Assembly: GCA_013298775.1 (NCBI GenBank)
Contig: JAAFIV010000011.1
Location: 1-64,000 of the forward strand
From: Ignavibacteria bacterium
GTDB lineage: Bacteria; Bacteroidota; Ignavibacteria; Kapaibacteriales; UBA4661
Direction: 5' to 3'
Length of the DNA stretch: 64,000 nucleotides
In this document: in pieces, positions 49,102-63,524 of the stretch
Position numbering within the stretch: the first letter of the stretch is position 1
Layout: each line of letters opens with the position of its first letter
Notes under the pieces: generated by a model
The model's input: only the letters and a program-made list of their open reading frames with translations
Told to the model about the DNA's origin: nothing
The model's database searches: none
Program-made: the position numbers and the translations under genes

Positions 49102-49490
49102 ACAGTGTTCTCCAAAAAAATAGACCTAAAAAGGGATACTATGAATTGAAGCCCTGAAAATAGCACTCTTTCATGGGATTTCCAATCCATACAGTAAAAA
49201 AATCCACGCCCTGCTGAATAATTGCCTTTCCCTCACTACCCTACGCACCGCATAAAATGTGAACTTCACCTTTGTACACGACAAAACCTCTGAAAAGCTC
49301 GTAGAATCAGGCTTCAGTGGCTTGAGACTTTCTGTCTGTGTTTCTCACCCGAATCCCGCACCAACACTCACAGACAAGAATGTCTGTGCCACTGCTGAAG
49401 AAGTTTTGTCGTGTACAAAGGAACTTCACCACATACTCGCCTCCGGCGCACTGGTTTATGTCACGACCAGAGCAAGCATACAAATACAAC
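49102..49490. repeat. Repeat island, family A composite
   Basis: This gene-free 389-bp region holds a nested repeat. Outer arms carry an exact 19-bp inverted match (CCTTTGTACACGACAAAAC near 49268-49286, inverse near 49403-49421). The inner part is an inverted pair of the CACAGACAAGAATGTCTGTG palindrome, intact on the right (49369-49393) and degenerate on the left (49314-49340). The motif CGCATAAAAT lies at 49249-49258, as beside other islands. A related composite lies at 63351-63501. Confidence 0.75.
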
Positions 49491-55592: not shown

Positions 55593-55666
55593 AGTGGCAC
55601 AGACATTCTTGTCTGTGATTCTTCAAACCCGCATAAAGACTCACAGACAAGAATGTCTGTGCCACT
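55593..55666. repeat. Family A inverted repeat, exact 25-bp arms
   Basis: Arms at 55593-55617 and 55642-55666 are perfect inverted copies over 25 bp, with a 24-bp spacer. Each arm itself is an imperfect palindrome (CACAGACATTCTTGTCTGTG). CGCATAAAATC lies just before at 55576-55586. The whole gap 55479-55719 holds nothing else recognisable. Confidence 0.9.
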
Positions 55667-55719
55667 GAGAATTAACGTAGATAATATCTATTGAACTATT
55701 GAACTATTGAACAACAACT

Positions 55720-57336
55720 CTACGCCTCAACCGGCAAAGCCACAAAAAAAGTCGCGCCGTTACCCAATTCAGATTCACACCAGACGCGCCCTTGCATGGC
55801 TTCCGCCATTTTTTTCACAATCGAAAGCCCTAAACCAGTGGAATGTTCCCCGCCTGTCGGACGCGCTGAAAGTCGCATAAATTTTCCAAAGAGCTTGGTT
55901 TTATCCTGTTCCGACAGCCCTGGTCCTTCATCGCGGACGAACATCACGAGTTCTTTTTTGCCCTCTGGTGCATTCGCATACGAAACCCGTTCCTCTGCGC
56001 CCACCCACACATTTTTGCCGTGTGGAGAGTATTTTACGGCATTGGAAACGAGATTATCTAAAATTTGTTCTACTGCAAGAAAGTCTGCAAACACCAGTGT
56101 CTGTGCGGGGAGTTCCTGAAGATGCACGGTAATTCCTTTTTCCGCACCACGCCCATTATACAAATTCACCGCATTATCCAGCAACGGATGAACGTTGAAT
56201 TGCTGTGCTACAAACTGCTGCCCGCCACGCTCCAAGGCGTTCACATCCAACAAATTTTTGATGAGTTCAAACATTTTGAGCGAGCTTTTGAAAATTGTTT
56301 CCGCAATCGTAGGAATGGTCTCTGGAGCGGCAACATTACTCATCAGCAACTCAGAAAGCCCTTGAATTCCCGTGAGTGGGTTTTTCAAATCGTGCGCGGC
56401 AATACCCAAAAACTCGTCTTTTTCATTGCTGAGTTCCTTCAAAGCGAGATTTTGCGCCTGAATCCGGTCATTCGCGCTCGAAAGCTCCATTGTGCGCAAT
56501 TCCAATTGAGTATTTGCTGTCTCAACAAAATCATTCACAATTTCCATTTGCTTATTTGCCGTCAGAAGGTCTTCCTGTGCGGCTTCCAAGCGATTCATCA
56601 TGGAATTAAAGGCACGAGAGAGAACACCCGGCTCGCTTTCTCCCATCCAGCCCTTCACCTCTGGCGCACGCTCCCGCAAATCCCCCTCCGCAACGCGCTC
56701 GGTTACGTGAAATAAGGTACGAAGCGGCTTTGTGAGCCATTGCGCAATCACAAGCGACATTCCGCCCGCAAACAAGGCTAACACTGCTCCCCAGACCAAG
56801 GAAACAATGCGCGAGCGAGCGATATTTGCATTCATTACCGTTGGTTTTACGCCAATGAGAACCTCGCCAATGCGGTCGTTTCCCACCAGCATTCGTATTG
56901 GCGCGGCAACCGTTACATCGCCATCATTTTCAATAAATGTGCGCACCGAATCAAGCGGCATAAGCTGTGCGCCCGCTTGCAGTGCCTTTGGTGCAAGGGC
57001 AAAATTACGTGTGTACAAGGTATCGCCGTTGTTGTGGCGGATGATGAGCCATGAAAAATCTTGCAAGCCCTCCACACCATGCGCAGCGCGGGCGAGGAGC
57101 TTTTTATCAGCAAACGTAACGCCATCGCTGCTCCCAGCCGCAACCAGAAGCCCGATAGAGCGCGCCTGTGCGAGCATCAGCTCTCGTCCGCTTATTTCCT
57201 GCCGCCACGCACTAAAGAAAAATGCGAGCAACGAGGAAAATAGCACCAGCACAACCATTGCTGCGCCAATCTGCGCACCCATGGAGTAGCGCAGCGAAAA
57301 ACGATTACGTGTAGATGTTGAGAATGTGAGGGACAT
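55720..57336 (-). CDS. HAMP-domain sensor histidine kinase
   Basis: The 538-residue protein has a first membrane helix (about 20-45), a periplasmic sensor of roughly 120 residues and a second helix (about 165-187). A HAMP domain, coiled coil, HisKA with His near 314 (GIAAHDLKNPLTG) and an HATPase domain (DNLVSNAVKYSPHGK, DEGPGLSEQD, GLGLSIVKK) follow. The periplasmic part resembles a Cache-like sensor (RTFIENDGDVTVAAPI). The C-terminal 60 residues are nearly the same as in the propeller kinase (RLSARPTGGEHS...GRVWCESELGNGATFF). It lies between the two adenylate cyclase genes on the same strand. The ATG at 57336 is used; the 67-residue upstream extension is in repeat DNA. Confidence 0.9.
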   Translation of the reverse strand: MSLTFSTSTRNRFSLRYSMGAQIGAAMVVLVLFSSLLAFFFSAWRQEISGRELMLAQARSIGLLVAAGSSDGVTFADKKLLARAAHGVEGLQDFSWLIIRHNNGDTLYTRNFALAPKALQAGAQLMPLDSVRTFIENDGDVTVAAPIRMLVGNDRIGEVLIGVKPTVMNANIARSRIVSLVWGAVLALFAGGMSLVIAQWLTKPLRTLFHVTERVAEGDLRERAPEVKGWMGESEPGVLSRAFNSMMNRLEAAQEDLLTANKQMEIVNDFVETANTQLELRTMELSSANDRIQAQNLALKELSNEKDEFLGIAAHDLKNPLTGIQGLSELLMSNVAAPETIPTIAETIFKSSLKMFELIKNLLDVNALERGGQQFVAQQFNVHPLLDNAVNLYNGRGAEKGITVHLQELPAQTLVFADFLAVEQILDNLVSNAVKYSPHGKNVWVGAEERVSYANAPEGKKELVMFVRDEGPGLSEQDKTKLFGKFMRLSARPTGGEHSTGLGLSIVKKMAEAMQGRVWCESELGNGATFFVALPVEA

Positions 57337-57844
57337 AGCGTGAATACGTGATAGCAGAAGGTTTAGAACAAAACAAAGAATAGGATATTTTGAAGTTGAG
57401 ATAAAATTCTGTACCCCGCATAAAACCTCGTTTCTGCGCTTGCCCTCACCCAACCCTCTCCCAGAGGGCTGATAAGGGTAGATATTACTGGAAGCCTGAT
57501 AAAATCTCGTGTTTATGACAACACATCGAAAATACACGACTAAGATTTTACACTAGGTGTGAGGGTCTCAATTCTTATTGAGGCTCTCACTTCTTATTGA
57601 GGCTCTCACTTCTTCTTCTTCTCTGTGAAGAAAGTAAGAGCCTCAATAAGAAGTGAGACCCTCACACAGAACATCAGTTTTTATGCGCCTTCTGGAATAC
57701 CTACCCTTGTTAGCTCCCAGAGGGAGATAGCTTCAGAAACGTTTAATTTTCTTAGTCTTAGCACCTTTTCCCTCTGGGAGAAGGCAGGGGATAAGGGTGA
57801 GAACGGGCAGTTTTATCTAAACTTCAAATGTTGCAATGAAAATG
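57337..57844. repeat. Large nested palindromic repeat island
   Basis: This 508-bp gene-free region combines several repeat types. An outer pair contains CCCTCACCCAACCCTCTCCC near 57444-57470 and its rough inverse near 57763-57800 (CTCTGGGAGAAGG then GATAAGGGTGAG). An inner pair is family B: GTGAGGGTCTCA at 57559 followed by a second half-copy, and the inverse at 57637-57665, matching 28 of 29 positions. CGCATAAAACCTCG lies at 57418-57431 and TGATAAAATCTCGTG near 57498. The island could fold into a very long hairpin between the HAMP kinase and the second cyclase. Confidence 0.8.
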
Positions 57845-59773
57845 TTACGACGGTTCTTCCGATGCGGAAGCCATTTCTTTCAGCAAATATGCGCGAGTAC
57901 GAAGATTTCCCTTGAGATGAAGTTCCCCTCGCTCTTCAAAAATACATTTTTTATGCAGCATTTCATAGCTTACCTGAGAACATTGAATCTCTCCCGCTTC
58001 TGCGTGCGATTGTAGGCGCGATGCGATGTTTACGGTTTCGCCCCAGAGGTCGAAGGAGAATTTCTTTTTGCCAATCACGCCCGCTACCACTGCGCCTGTG
58101 TGAATGCCAATCCGCACGCGCACGGGGAGAATTTCGCCAGAAGGCGCATCAATACTATAATTCCCCATAATACGCTGAATATCAAGAGCGAAGCGTGCAA
58201 CGCGCTCTGCGTGGTCGGCGCACGGCTCTGGTACGCCCGCCACTGCCAAATATGCATCGCCAATGGTTTTAATTTTTTCTAAACCATTGCGTTCGGCGAG
58301 AGCATCGAAATCGCTGAAAACCGCATCCAACAAGGTTACAAGCTCCTCAGGAGAGATTTGCGAAGCAAGTCTTGTAAATCCCACAATATCGGCAAAGAGT
58401 ACCGTTACCTCGCTAAACCGCTCTGCTATGCGCTGTTCACCAGCTTGCATCCGCCGTGCAATGGGCGCAGGAAGAACGTTTTCCAGAAGCTGTTCGATAA
58501 GTTCATTTTTCGCGCTCAATTGCCCATTTGCCGCTTGCAGAGCCGCTTCCGAGCGTTTTTTCAATCGAAACCGATTTGCCAACAACACAATACCAATCAA
58601 TCCAAGAAGCATCATTATTATCAAACTATTCCGAAGCAAGGATTGGCGGTCTTTCTCGGACGTAAGCAGGGCAATTTCTTTCGCCCTCAGTTCCGCATCA
58701 TATTTCGCATTGAACTCGGCAGACTTTGTATCAGCCTCTTCCGAAAAGAGCGAATCCTTCAACGCCTCGTAGCGACGCACGTTGTAGTACGCACCCGAAA
58801 AATTACCGATGCGCTCTTCAATATGCGCCAAAAGCTCGTAACAATCGCGCAATTCTTTTCGGGCATTCAAGCCCTGAGCCAGCACCATTGCTACGTCCAG
58901 CGACCGTAATGCTTCATCATTTTTCTTCAACGCAAAAAGAGCTTTCGCCGCTCCAAAGTGAGCATCTACCAAGCCTTTGCGGTTATCATTCTTCTCATAC
59001 AGCGCGATTGCTTGCTTGTGGTATTCCAATGCGCGTCCCTGCTCGCCTGTTTCCTGCAAGAGTGTTCCGAGCGAAGTATAGGTAAGCGCGAAACCGTTGC
59101 TGTTATTCGAGCCGTCCAAAACCCTGAGTGCCGCTTGGTGCATAGCTTGGGCGGAATCATACATTTTTTTATTGCGATACACAATCCCGATATTATTGTA
59201 CGCCGCAGCCATGCTGCTTTTCGCGGGAATACGCTGATAGACCGATAAGGCTTGATACAAGTATTTGAGCGCGTCATCGAACTTTTTCTGTGTGGAATAA
59301 ATGAGTCCGATATTATTCAATGAGCTTCCAACCCCGCGTGAATCCTGAATCTCTCGGCGCAATATGAGGGATTTCTGGTAATACTCCAGCGCAATATCAT
59401 ACCATCCTTGATAAAAATATGCTACGCCGATTGTATTCAACGAATTGGCTATACCGCGCTTAAAATCAGCTCGTTCAGCAATTCCTAAGGCTTCAAACGC
59501 ATACCGTCTGGCATCTTTGGGAGCCGTTGCCCAGAGTTCGCGGGCGAGGTCAATAAGTGCCAGAACCCGCAGAGAATCAGGCACATTGCCAGACGAATAC
59601 TTTTGAACAATTTGCTGCAAACTATCTATTTTTAATGCAGGAAGGGGAGACGATTGAGAGGAAGCAGCTAGAAAATTTTTAGGAGTTTGAGCCAGAATAC
59701 GAGGAATGAAGCCACTAAAAGAGCAGCTAACGAACATCAGCAACCAACACATGTTTGCATAGCAAGATTTCAT
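57845..59773 (-). CDS. TPR-sensor class III adenylate cyclase, copy 2
   Basis: The 642-residue protein is a paralogue of copy 1. It has a signal peptide (to ILAQ, about 29), about seven TPR units (e.g. GVGSSLNNIGLIYSTQKKFD), a membrane helix (about 385-405), the connector NVLPAPIARRMQAGE and a cyclase domain (about 458-630). Catalytic residues are kept: Asp in FADIVGFT and TIGDAYL, Lys in EKIKTIGD and Asp in FDLWGETVN for the adenine base, and Asn/Arg in NIASRL. It should make cAMP. It is the most upstream gene of the four-gene signalling array. The ATG at 59773 gives the signal peptide directly. Confidence 0.88.
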   Translation of the reverse strand: MKSCYANMCWLLMFVSCSFSGFIPRILAQTPKNFLAASSQSSPLPALKIDSLQQIVQKYSSGNVPDSLRVLALIDLARELWATAPKDARRYAFEALGIAERADFKRGIANSLNTIGVAYFYQGWYDIALEYYQKSLILRREIQDSRGVGSSLNNIGLIYSTQKKFDDALKYLYQALSVYQRIPAKSSMAAAYNNIGIVYRNKKMYDSAQAMHQAALRVLDGSNNSNGFALTYTSLGTLLQETGEQGRALEYHKQAIALYEKNDNRKGLVDAHFGAAKALFALKKNDEALRSLDVAMVLAQGLNARKELRDCYELLAHIEERIGNFSGAYYNVRRYEALKDSLFSEEADTKSAEFNAKYDAELRAKEIALLTSEKDRQSLLRNSLIIMMLLGLIGIVLLANRFRLKKRSEAALQAANGQLSAKNELIEQLLENVLPAPIARRMQAGEQRIAERFSEVTVLFADIVGFTRLASQISPEELVTLLDAVFSDFDALAERNGLEKIKTIGDAYLAVAGVPEPCADHAERVARFALDIQRIMGNYSIDAPSGEILPVRVRIGIHTGAVVAGVIGKKKFSFDLWGETVNIASRLQSHAEAGEIQCSQVSYEMLHKKCIFEERGELHLKGNLRTRAYLLKEMASASEEPS

Positions 59774-59857
59774 GCGCTATCCCTGTAACAAACGCTAAAA
59801 TCAGTAATCTGGTAAAACTCGTTCCAGAATATCGGTGCAATACCCTTAGAGTGTCGT

Positions 59858-59885
59858 GTGGCGCAGACAGGAGTGTCTGCGCCAC
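59858..59885. repeat. Single REP-like hairpin, family A variant
   Basis: Perfect 12-bp arms GTGGCGCAGACA and TGTCTGCGCCAC flank a 4-nt loop. Compared with the main family A palindrome, A-T pairs have been exchanged for G-C on both sides, so pairing is kept. It sits between the PorD-like stop and the second cyclase and has no T run. Confidence 0.75.
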
Positions 59886-59901
59886 CATCAAGCATCAATA
59901 C

Positions 59902-60888
59902 CTACCGCCCCTTCTGCGCTTGCTCGTAGGGCAAGGTATGCGAAGGGTCAATATATTTGAGCTTTTCCCAAACTTTGGGATATTTGGTTGTTCCCTTGAA
60001 CAAATCGCAAAACTCACGGTATTTCGCATCGGAAATGATTTGCATCAGCATACTGCGCGATGGGTATTTATCTTTGAAGTCGGCAAATTTCGTGAAAAGC
60101 GCGTCAATACTTGCTTTTGCTTCATCGGGTTTATCGCTGAGATAATCCATACCATTCAAGTAATATGCCGCTAACAAGCGACGAAATGGCTCAACACGAA
60201 CATCCAGCAATTCATTCACCAAACCCGCACGTGTAATCATGCTTGGATTATCAGGATTGACGCGGTATCCAGCGGAAGAAAAATTCTGACCGCTTGGGTC
60301 GCTGTAATTCGCGCCCATTTGCACAATCTGCTGCGCACGTTGAAAATAGGACGTTCCAGCAAGTTCGCTGTACGAATCCATATCTAAACCAATGGCAATG
60401 AACGCAAAGAAATCCAGAAAACTTGCCAATTCATCGAAACGAAGTGGCTGAAAACTGGGCGACGCACCGCGTGAATACAGGAACGACCAGCTATTGTCGA
60501 GGTATTGAAAGGTAACGCTTTTTTGCTGCGAACCAAAGAGCGGACGCTGCGCGGTAACAATCACTTTGGCGTTATACCGCCCCGTATTCTGGCTTCCGCT
60601 CATAATAAACACGCTCACATTCATCACCACTGGCTCGTCTTTCCACTTGATTTTATCCGCTTCGCTCTTGTATTCTTTGCCCGTAAAGGATTGGGAATTC
60701 AAGTAATTCTGCAATTCAAATTGTAAGGACGAGAGATTTTCGCGCTCATTCGGCACGTCCATTTGGTCGAGATTGACCGTAACCGTAGCTTTTAATTCCT
60801 GAGCAGTGAGATTTGGTGCGGGTTGCAGAGCATTCATCACGATACCGACAACGAACACCAACAGGCTATTTCTATACGACAATTTCAT
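59902..60888 (-). CDS. DUF4835/PorD-like T9SS accessory protein
   Basis: The 328-residue periplasmic protein has a signal peptide (to LTAQ, about 30) and the DUF4835 layout. Early strands KATVTVNLDQMD and a mid-region with LASFLDFFAFIAIGLDMDSYSELAG match the family, as does a C-terminal helical part ending YPSRSMLMQIISDAKYREFCDLF. The family is tied to type IX secretion (PorD) in Bacteroidota. That fits the sorting domains on three proteins encoded here. It is encoded singly, divergent from the barrel gene. The ATG at 60888 is preferred; the 11-residue extension weakens the signal peptide. Confidence 0.8.
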   Translation of the reverse strand: MKLSYRNSLLVFVVGIVMNALQPAPNLTAQELKATVTVNLDQMDVPNERENLSSLQFELQNYLNSQSFTGKEYKSEADKIKWKDEPVVMNVSVFIMSGSQNTGRYNAKVIVTAQRPLFGSQQKSVTFQYLDNSWSFLYSRGASPSFQPLRFDELASFLDFFAFIAIGLDMDSYSELAGTSYFQRAQQIVQMGANYSDPSGQNFSSAGYRVNPDNPSMITRAGLVNELLDVRVEPFRRLLAAYYLNGMDYLSDKPDEAKASIDALFTKFADFKDKYPSRSMLMQIISDAKYREFCDLFKGTTKYPKVWEKLKYIDPSHTLPYEQAQKGR

Positions 60889-61057
60889 GCAGATTGTGAG
60901 GAGTTTGTTTGGGAAGAACATGGAATTATGCTAGATTCTGTGCGCTTGCAAGGATATTCCTCGTACAACAGAATCTGACGTACAATATGCAATATGAGGA
61001 AGTTTACGCAACCTCACAACTACATAATTTGCCACCTATTCTTTGACGGAATAGCGC

Positions 61058-63277
61058 ATGAAAACGTTTATTTTCCCTCTACGATTCGTGCTTCTTGTGC
61101 CTTTTTTTACATGCGTATTCACCACTCGTGGGAATGCGCAAGAAAAACCACAAGAAAAACTACAAAGACAATCACCCACAAAGCGCACCAATACGAGTTT
61201 AGAGCAGGTATTAGAATTTCTCGCTATCAATGCTACAAATGTGCCGAATCTCGACGCATTGGAATACTACGCCGCATATCCACTCGTGTTACAGAAGATT
61301 TCCGCGTCAGACCTGGAAGAACTTGCCGTTTTTTCTCGCGAAACTGCCGAGCGTATTGTTGAGTATTTCCAGCGCAATCCCGCATCACGCCTAACACAAC
61401 TCACCAACGACCTCCAACTTTCTCCTCTCCAAATCCTTGTTTTGAAGGCTTGCACAACCGACAAACCATCGCGTTCAAAGGCAAGCCGAAACAACCTTGA
61501 TAGCACCCAAACACCGCTCCACGTCTGGTATCGCGCCAGAACACGTTTTCTTGCAACACCACAACGCGGCTTCACATCTGATGCGACGGCAAGCCAGCAA
61601 TTTCAAGGTTCGCCATTGGAATTGTACCAACGCCTCAGCATCAGGTATGATGCGCCTTCTACGCTATTTATGCCGAATGATTCGTTAAATAATTTCACCA
61701 GCGCAGAACAAAAAAACGCAGTCATTGAAGGAAATATCACGCTGGCAAAAGATGCTGGAGAGCGTACGATTACTGATTTTGCGAGTGCATATCTTCGAGC
61801 AAATGTTGGCAATACGCATATCATTTTGGGAGATTTTCTCGTGGAAAGCGGCATGGGAACTGCCTTGTGGAGTATTTATGGCAATGGCAAAAGTGCCGAT
61901 GTGCTTACGCCCACCACACAGCAAAAATTCCGCATTGTTCCCTACCGCTCTTCGACTGAACAGCAGTATTTTCGCGGCATTGCAGCACAAACATCCTTGC
62001 CAATTCCGCGCACAACCATCAATCGCACAACGGGAATGATGAAGCGTGATTCTCTTCGATTTGACGTGAAAGGCTGGTATTCCTCACAAAGCCGTGCAGC
62101 CCGCATTGATACTGCGCTTGGCGTTGCAACGTCGCTGAACTTCGACGGACTTTTTCGCACGCGCTCAGAGATTTCCCTTCTCGGTGGCTTGCAAGAGCGT
62201 GTTGGTGGGCTTGGTGCGGAAATACGAGGCGTGGAAAATTCACAGGAAGAACGCACGGAAACCGCATGGTCGCTCGGTGCGACAGCATTTTTGGTGGACT
62301 ATGATAAAGAAATTATTTCGCGCTCCTCACAAGTTTTTTTTGGACAACGTGGCGTGAACGCGAGCATGTACGGTATGTTTCGGCGCGGTGCATTCCTCTT
62401 GAACGCTGAAATGAGCATGGATGGGCAGCAGCATCTTGGAGGGCGCATCAATGCTGAATTTTTCATTCATCAAGGGAAATCAAAGGAATGGGAATTTGCT
62501 ACCTCCGCACGGTACTTCCCCGCGAGCTTTCGTGCGCCTTTCGGGGTGAATTTTGGCGAAAATAGAAAACCTACGAATGAAGCAGGTTTGTACGCCAGCG
62601 CAATTTGGAACGGCGCGGAAAATCTTCGCTGCGTGGCGTATATGGATGCGTACACGAGCATTACCAGCACTGCAACCGTGCCTGTGGAAGTACGTGGAAT
62701 TGACTTTTTTACCGAGACTGTCTGGGAAGCGTCCGATGCAATCAGCCTCACAGCCCGTCTTCGCCACGAAACCAAGACGGATGCTCTCACGCAAGGTACA
62801 GGACGCAATCGGCAACGCATCGTTTTTGCTCGCGGTAAGTCATCGCTGCGCTTGCACGGAGATTTCACGCTTTCGCCCGAACTCCGCTTGCAATCTCGCT
62901 TGGAAGGCGTTTTAGTTAATTTTGAAAATGCCGAGCCACAGGAAACAGGTGTGTTAGCGTTTGTGGGTGCGGAATGGAGACCTTTGGAGCAACTCGCCGT
63001 CTTTGTGCGCTGTGCAGGATTTTCCACGCAGAGCTTTGATTCTGCTTTGTGGCAATACGAGCGCACTATCGCTGGAACGCTCTCCAATCCTGCCTTGTAC
63101 GGTCAGGGTGTGCGGGCGTATTGCCTTGTGGAAGCGGCAGTTATTCCTGACTGCCTCGTGTCGCTACGCGGCGCAGTTACACGGCGTTTCGATGTTTCCA
63201 CGCTAGGAAGCGGCGCAACGCAAATCAACAGCAATACCGATGCGCAACTCTTGGTGCAAGTGGATGTGAAGTTTTGA
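61058..63277 (+). CDS. Outer-membrane beta-barrel protein with N-terminal helix-hairpin-helix motifs
   Basis: The 739-residue protein has a signal peptide (to GNAQ, about 28) and an N-terminal helical part (about 45-140). Helix-hairpin-helix-like repeats there include LVLQKISASDLEELAVFSRE and ASRLTQLTNDLQLSPLQILVL. A long beta-strand-rich region ends with a polar-aromatic strand (VQVDVKF), as expected for an outer-membrane barrel. The repeat EKPQEKLQ follows the signal. I know related HhH-plus-barrel proteins only as uncharacterised Bacteroidota proteins. A role in DNA uptake or T9SS assembly would be speculation. Confidence 0.7.
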   Translation: MKTFIFPLRFVLLVPFFTCVFTTRGNAQEKPQEKLQRQSPTKRTNTSLEQVLEFLAINATNVPNLDALEYYAAYPLVLQKISASDLEELAVFSRETAERIVEYFQRNPASRLTQLTNDLQLSPLQILVLKACTTDKPSRSKASRNNLDSTQTPLHVWYRARTRFLATPQRGFTSDATASQQFQGSPLELYQRLSIRYDAPSTLFMPNDSLNNFTSAEQKNAVIEGNITLAKDAGERTITDFASAYLRANVGNTHIILGDFLVESGMGTALWSIYGNGKSADVLTPTTQQKFRIVPYRSSTEQQYFRGIAAQTSLPIPRTTINRTTGMMKRDSLRFDVKGWYSSQSRAARIDTALGVATSLNFDGLFRTRSEISLLGGLQERVGGLGAEIRGVENSQEERTETAWSLGATAFLVDYDKEIISRSSQVFFGQRGVNASMYGMFRRGAFLLNAEMSMDGQQHLGGRINAEFFIHQGKSKEWEFATSARYFPASFRAPFGVNFGENRKPTNEAGLYASAIWNGAENLRCVAYMDAYTSITSTATVPVEVRGIDFFTETVWEASDAISLTARLRHETKTDALTQGTGRNRQRIVFARGKSSLRLHGDFTLSPELRLQSRLEGVLVNFENAEPQETGVLAFVGAEWRPLEQLAVFVRCAGFSTQSFDSALWQYERTIAGTLSNPALYGQGVRAYCLVEAAVIPDCLVSLRGAVTRRFDVSTLGSGATQINSNTDAQLLVQVDVKF

Positions 63278-63524
63278 AACGATGAGGATACCCTAAAATA
63301 ACGTAGCAGTGAGGGTCTGACTTCTTCGTCAGGCTATCACTACTATTTGCCTTTGTACATGACAATACTTCTTTCATAGTGGCACAGACATTCTTGTCTG
63401 TGAGTATTAGTGTAAGTTTCAAGCGACAAACACAGGCAAGAATGCCTGTGCCACTGAAGCCTGATTTTACGAGCGTCTCAGAGGTTTTGTCGTGTACAAA
63501 GACTATTTGCTTCATTTCATACCA
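63278..63524. repeat. Repeat island with family B and family A elements
   Basis: Family B occurs at 63309-63340 (GTGAGGGTCTGACTTCTTCG...). Family A occurs as an inverted pair at 63378-63402 and 63431-63455. The right arm reads CACAGGCAAGAATGCCTGTG, with two linked changes that keep its palindrome. Outer arms with TTTGTACATGACAA (63353-63366) and TTGTCGTGTACAAAG (63487-63501) match the outer arms of the 49.3 kb island. Confidence 0.85.

Follow-up and report, generated by a model that had tools for sequence, protein, structure and literature searches.

A REPIN family in an Ignavibacteria genome and its probable RAYT transposase, nested in frame in recG of sister species

Family-A hairpins within the window

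The window, that is the whole stretch of 64,000 nucleotides analysed here (contig JAAFIV010000011.1 of an Ignavibacteria bacterium), carries several copies of a short palindrome. Read with its foot, the repeated unit consists of GTGG followed by the hairpin CACAGACA-TTCT-TGTCTGTG, and is referred to as family A. Exact copies of the palindrome lie at 49369(-), 55598(+), 55642(-) and 63383(+), and a copy with two mismatches lies at 63431(-). These five matches compare with 0.01 expected by chance, and none of 100 shuffled sequences contained as many. The family-A pairs formed by these copies are mirror-symmetric, with their feet pointing outwards.

A preliminary description of this DNA had proposed inverted pairs at 49.3, 55.6 and 63.4 kb, and all three are located as claimed. 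The 55.6-kb pair is a perfect REPIN of 72 bp (55594..55665), composed of a REP at 55594-55617(+), a spacer and a REP at 55642-55665(-). The identity of its arms over 25 bp, also part of that description, holds when the GTGG foot is counted (55593-55617 and 55642-55666). The 63.4-kb REPIN spans 76 bp (63379..63454, with REPs at 63379-63402(+) and 63431-63454(-)), and its right arm, CACAGGCAAGAATGCCTGTG, indeed carries the suggested stem-keeping change, a linked A->G / T->C exchange converting an A:T into a G:C pair. At 49.3 kb (49317..49392) the right REP is exact (49369-49392), and the left partner is present but degenerate (GTGGCTTGAGACTTTCTGTCTGTG, 49317-49340).

A single hairpin with a double foot, GTGGCGCAGACA GGAG TGTCTGCGCCAC, is found by sequence match on the minus strand at 59858..59885. 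This 59.9-kb copy, GTGGCGCAGACAGGAGTGTCTGCGCCAC, had been regarded as a variant with paired base changes that keep the stem. It is single and its stem is kept, but it matches a second, sister subfamily, A2, defined by GTAG-CGCAGACACTCTTGTCTGCG, and its changes are therefore partly subfamily differences rather than just mutations of a family-A copy. At sample loci of the window's genome (G000), the GTAG-tagged A2 elements pair with their feet inwards, the opposite of family A.

Two of the REPINs are enclosed by further inverted repeats. Outer 22-bp arms surround the 49.3-kb REPIN (49270..49420; CTTTGTACACGACAAAACCTCT at 49270-49291 and AGAAGTTTTGTCGTGTACAAAG at 49399-49420), and outer arms also flank the 63.4-kb REPIN (63351..63501; 63351-63372 and 63480-63501). 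The window additionally contains a family-B REPIN at 57557-57667 (GTGAGGGTCTCAATTCTTATTGAGGCTCTCAC), a family that also surrounds the only intact RAYT gene of the genome. In Rfam, the region matched only microRNA models and two sRNA models; none of these matches reached its gathering score, and they were set aside as generic hairpin matches.

Copy number, pairing and conservation of family A

The window's genome comprises 5.19 Mb in 95 contigs, from which a 569-kb sample was used for detailed counts. Genome-wide, 725 family-A hairpins were found within three mismatches, against one for a reversed control; 298 exact 24-mers of GTGG plus hairpin and 75 REPINs with both arms perfect were counted. 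The genome-wide check of copy number and pairing that had been suggested for a REPIN family thus came out in its favour. The sample holds 129 copies, 87 with the foot GTGG and 36 with GTAG (123/129 with either). Inverted pairs with outward feet number 45 in the sample, of which 31 share a 48-bp step. Although the sample is 83% coding, none of the 125 copies that could be placed falls inside a predicted coding sequence.

Conservation within the element is uneven. Across 31 equally long REPINs, divergence from the consensus is 2.3% in the arms and 22% in the spacer. Part of this gap follows from the search itself, which picked copies by the similarity of their arms; the eight foot columns played no role in it and differ by just 0-6%. 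Two-sided compensatory changes in the stem occur 27 times, compared with a mean of 4.0 and a maximum of 10 in 2000 shuffles. The earlier argument that linked, stem-keeping changes are a sign that the folded hairpin matters is thereby borne out far above chance at the scale of the genome. The observed copy number in the hundreds, inverted pairing at fixed spacing, intergenic location and compensated stems agree with the REPIN reading of the palindrome, and the population in the window's genome is still homogeneous.

The outer arms offer a different way of defining the mobile unit. Outer inverted arms of 17-22 bp (TTTGTACACGACAAAAC) around some family-A REPINs produce units of 150 bp, of which dozens of copies are found in a congener (G005). 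In one possible reading, family A is the MITE of a DDE transposon; the unit would then be the whole 150-bp element including its outer arms, CTTTGTACACGACAAAAC, with the REP hairpins as passengers. The outer arms around the 49.3- and 63.4-kb copies and the recurrence of the unit in G005 fit this possibility, as does the distribution of the arm itself: of 28 copies in 569 kb, 23 lie no more than 120 bp from a family-A REP, and nine pairs occur at 132-133 bp. Most family-A copies, however, have no outer arms and their REPs are still perfect, the GTGG-tagged hairpin is the conserved part, as is the case for Y1 substrates, and family-A hairpins flank a transposase that is a Y1 RAYT (see below). 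We therefore consider a MITE origin very unlikely.

Among 61 genomes searched, large copy numbers of family A (84 to 565) were found only in G000, G001, G005, G006 and G007, all of one genus, and none were found in other families. Between congeners the number varies from 0 to several hundred. The genes at 53.5-63.3 kb of the window are collinear with contig C55 of G005, at 79-84% identity, yet the 55.6-kb REPIN is not present between the same genes there, and the spacers of this G005 region hold different palindromes. Elsewhere in G005, the reading frame of an OmpA-type outer-membrane protein runs through a complete family-A REPIN within its signal-peptide region (L247, C60, 4467-4539).

Conservation of a hairpin could also reflect a function in RNA, with the copies being kept mainly as host terminators or stabilisers. 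The compensated stems fit this, and the copies of the sample are all intergenic and mostly lie between co-directional genes. Their context (101 tandem, 14 divergent, 10 convergent) nevertheless mirrors the intergenic mix of the genome itself (241/43/38). Pairing with fixed foot and spacing, lineage-specific copy number and the in-frame copies in recG and in the outer-membrane protein gene all fit mobility better, and we give the RNA explanation hardly any weight.

Y1 transposase genes in the window's genome

A RAYT linked to the palindrome had been named as the second check on a REPIN family, and here the outcome is mixed: the genome itself holds two Y1 genes, both flanked by other palindromes, and a RAYT flanked by family A is found inside recG in three sister species. 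One resident gene is intact (C8:7869-8444) and is surrounded by family-B palindromes, GTGAGGGTCTCAATTCTTATTGAGGCTCTCAC; the other carries an in-frame TAA (C1:198417-198971) and is surrounded by family-C palindromes, GTGCGAGGCTCTCGC... With these flanks, both were ruled out as family-A transposases. No RAYT flanked by family A was found in the 95-contig assembly, in which loss and an assembly gap cannot be distinguished; the gene is either lost from recG or hidden in such a gap. The link between enzyme and substrate therefore is one of association in sister species, and the REPIN assignment relies on taking family A across species as one family.

The recG gene of the window's genome is itself not free of palindromes. 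The loop that holds the RAYT in sister species is occupied here by an in-frame REPIN of a fourth family, CCAACCCTTCTCCCAGAGGGAGAAGG...CCCTCTCCTTCTGGGAGAGGG (L104, G000:C78 3358-3440). This element encodes PSPSGRGLGEG peptides and has about 20-26 matches in 569 kb.

A RAYT nested in recG of three congeners

A profile search of the genus at a permissive E-value returned full-length matches to the family-A RAYT at exactly three places, G005:C139, G006:C10 and G007:C58 (E about 1e-97 to 1e-103). Each genome has one copy, situated in frame and without a stop within its only recG gene, and each copy has family-A REPs on both sides in inverted orientation. The insertion site is a variable loop of RecG between motif II (DEQH) and motif III (SAT), bounded by DEQHRFGVLQRAELKKKATASF and SPHIMVMSATPIPRT. 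In the RecG frame the flanking REPs read as VAQTFLSV and QTRMSVP. Given the in-frame position, REP, RAYT and REP would all be translated as part of RecG, although expression as a fusion is inferred. The gene is thus embedded in another reading frame rather than free-standing, the latter being usual for a RAYT but not strictly defining.

The same loop is observed short and without a RAYT in G001, G004, G002 and G018, and G003 and G009 carry different short loops. The closest sisters of two of the carriers have no recG-borne RAYT (G001 vs G006; G000 vs G005), and the RecG of G001 is nearly identical to that of G006. The recG gene of G007 is split over contigs C20 and C58, whose ends overlap at the duplicated REP. 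Assembly chimeras are unlikely, as three separate congener assemblies agree, the G007 contigs join at that REP, and nesting is also seen in G012, a genome assembled as a single contig.

The identity of the nested gene is supported in several ways. Against NCBIfam NF047646 (REP-associated tyrosine transposase) it scores 79.2 bits (E=2.7e-22), the cut-off being 80. Its top PDB relative, both by sequence and by the fold of a predicted model (mean pLDDT 85.5), is 4er8, a TnpA_REP bound to a REP hairpin. Across 44 relatives, neither the H-x-H (HUH) motif nor the tyrosine varies. When the whole RecG::RAYT protein is modelled, the RecG lobes and a RAYT-like fold are both recovered, connected by linkers of low confidence, but confidence in the model as a whole is low (mean pLDDT 67). 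By predicted fold, motif and REP flanks, the recG-borne gene is identified as a RAYT / TnpA_REP; its catalytic activity, including REP binding and cleavage, is inferred.

Pairwise pN/pS values among the three recG-borne RAYTs range from 0.31/0.73 to 0.35/0.86. Synonymous sites are saturated while pN stays at 0.31-0.35, which shows conservation at the protein level. Selection for RecG accounts for the lack of stops, but not for the conserved catalytic residues. The frame could just as well have persisted because the RAYT was taken up as a useful domain of RecG. With dN of about 0.40 against 0.05-0.13 for their recG genes, the RAYTs are far more divergent than their hosts, and a single ancestral insertion is therefore not established.

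Nested relatives in other phyla

The 80 nearest relatives of this RAYT were collected from 84,980 species genomes, taking an open frame of at least 500 aa around the RAYT as the signal of nesting. Such a frame is observed in 26 of the 80, across phyla. The hosts named by NCBIfam are RecG (4, in Verrucomicrobiota and in another RecG loop), AlaS (4), IleS (2), MetH (2) and PurH (3), together with GcvP, PriA, RarA, RdgB, a SNF2-like helicase and several methyltransferases. In most nested cases the host family was matched both before and after the RAYT, with a few truncated at contig ends; this double match rules out high-GC accidents as the source of most long frames. Within one host, insertions are found at corresponding places. 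Nearly every nested case comes from a metagenome-assembled genome that lacks expression data.

A scan of 395 genomes from the window's phylum widened the range of hosts to DNA methyltransferases and one subunit of a type I restriction system. In 18 genomes chosen for having a nested RAYT, further close copies are mostly nested too. Two RAYTs are nested in one MetH (methionine synthase) frame, where the contig end truncates the first of them (L200). A more distant Y1 domain lies in frame at the corresponding place of PglX/Eco57I-like methyltransferases of two genera (L080 in G027, L081 in G001), and in G001 it is near a different palindromic peptide, KGACSLV.

Inverted repeats of the GTGG type flank nested and standalone RAYTs alike. 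On the tree, nested and free states are clustered, but the best tree requires 11 or more changes between them, two of which are forced by strongly supported branches. One verrucomicrobial clade of RAYTs (99% support) interleaves RecG, AlaS and MetH hosts. The simplest reading of these sequences is that the RAYT unit itself may move between permissive loops.

Conserved catalytic residues and a preserved frame would also be seen if RecG::RAYT were a domesticated fusion instead of a selfish nest, with the HUH nuclease put to use on hairpins or branched DNA where forks have stalled. It adds to the appeal of such a role that the fork-remodelling proteins RecG, PriA and RarA are repeatedly found as hosts, and that REPs inside repair genes were noted by Di Nocera 2013 (PMC3733652). 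The RAYT is missing, however, from the closest sister species of G006 and G005, the hosts AlaS, IleS, MetH, PurH and GcvP have no connection to hairpins, and related RAYTs switch hosts. Domestication is, in our judgement, unlikely, without being negligible.

Proposed mechanism

Taken together, the data are best explained by family A being a REPIN population, that is non-autonomous pairs of GTGG hairpins, copied by the RAYT/TnpA_REP nested in recG of its congeners, a reading to which we assign a probability of roughly 85%. The copying step itself is inferred. A REP-RAYT-REP unit would land in frame in a loop that tolerates it, within a gene the cell requires, after which the host gene would transcribe and translate the nested RAYT. 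Most frame-breaking mutations would be purged, because the host protein would also be broken. Carried on flexible REP-encoded linkers, the RAYT domain may act in trans on REP hairpins in single-stranded DNA, the presumed substrate being single-stranded GTGG-CACAGACATTCTTGTCTGTG. Short REPINs would pile up mainly between genes, where their cost is low. Loss of the RAYT, as suggested by the window's genome, would leave an orphan REPIN population.

More broadly, we lean towards a branch of RAYTs that are in-frame, apparently non-splicing residents of housekeeping proteins, in which REP-RAYT-REP moves between loops and copies REPINs between genes. An inferred advantage of such hitch-hiking is suggested by the fact that a disrupted RAYT copy also disrupts a needed gene, which would make the RAYT hard to lose.

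Comparison with known systems

REPINs, GTGG tags and intragenic REPs are already known (PMC3116915, PMC3733652). No description of RAYTs nested in frame in housekeeping genes was found in the open literature searched. RAYTs have been described as single-copy, vertically inherited genes (PMC8049555), with no evidence of tnpA_REP mobility (PMC8266576), and it is an open question how REPINs spread and why their transposase, seemingly immobile and low in copy number, is retained. The recG-nested RAYT, the RAYT-less loops of sister species and the AlaS, MetH and RecG hosts within one clade point to RAYT mobility. If true, this would be direct evidence of such mobility and a reason for low-copy persistence. 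Nested RAYTs may also explain the very long 'transposase fusion' proteins that a survey of TnpA_Y1 left out, having taken such 'unexpectedly long proteins' for fusions or mistakes in annotation (PMC6006769).

Family A resembles the REPIN/RAYT system of Pseudomonas (Bertels & Rainey 2011, PMC3116915; PMC8049555) in its tagged hairpins, inverted and intergenic pairs, copies in the hundreds, a spacer less conserved than the arms, and a single-copy Y1 transposase flanked by its own REP. Unlike Pseudomonas RAYTs, that of family A lies in frame inside recG in three congeners, the loop is RAYT-less in sister species, and the cognate RAYT was not found in the assembly of the window's own genome. The GTRG tag and REPs in frame inside repair genes are shared with the GTAG/GTGG-tagged REPs of Di Nocera 2013 (PMC3733652), a survey that reports GTGG for most O. 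terrae GTAG-20 elements; what its consulted passages describe inside genes are REPs of 20-82 residues and not a transposase gene. Palindromic repeats in frame in conserved genes are likewise known as Rickettsia palindromic elements. Of these, RPE-4 and RPE-6 are CGTC-tagged, and CGTC repeats have no association with transposase genes (PMC3733652), in contrast to family A with its GTGG tag and Y1 transposase. Finally, family scans of the nested RAYT proteins recognised no splicing domain. As with inteins and homing endonucleases, a mobile enzyme domain sits in frame within conserved housekeeping proteins; unlike inteins, the nested RAYT lies in variable loops and its domain is apparently retained in the host protein.
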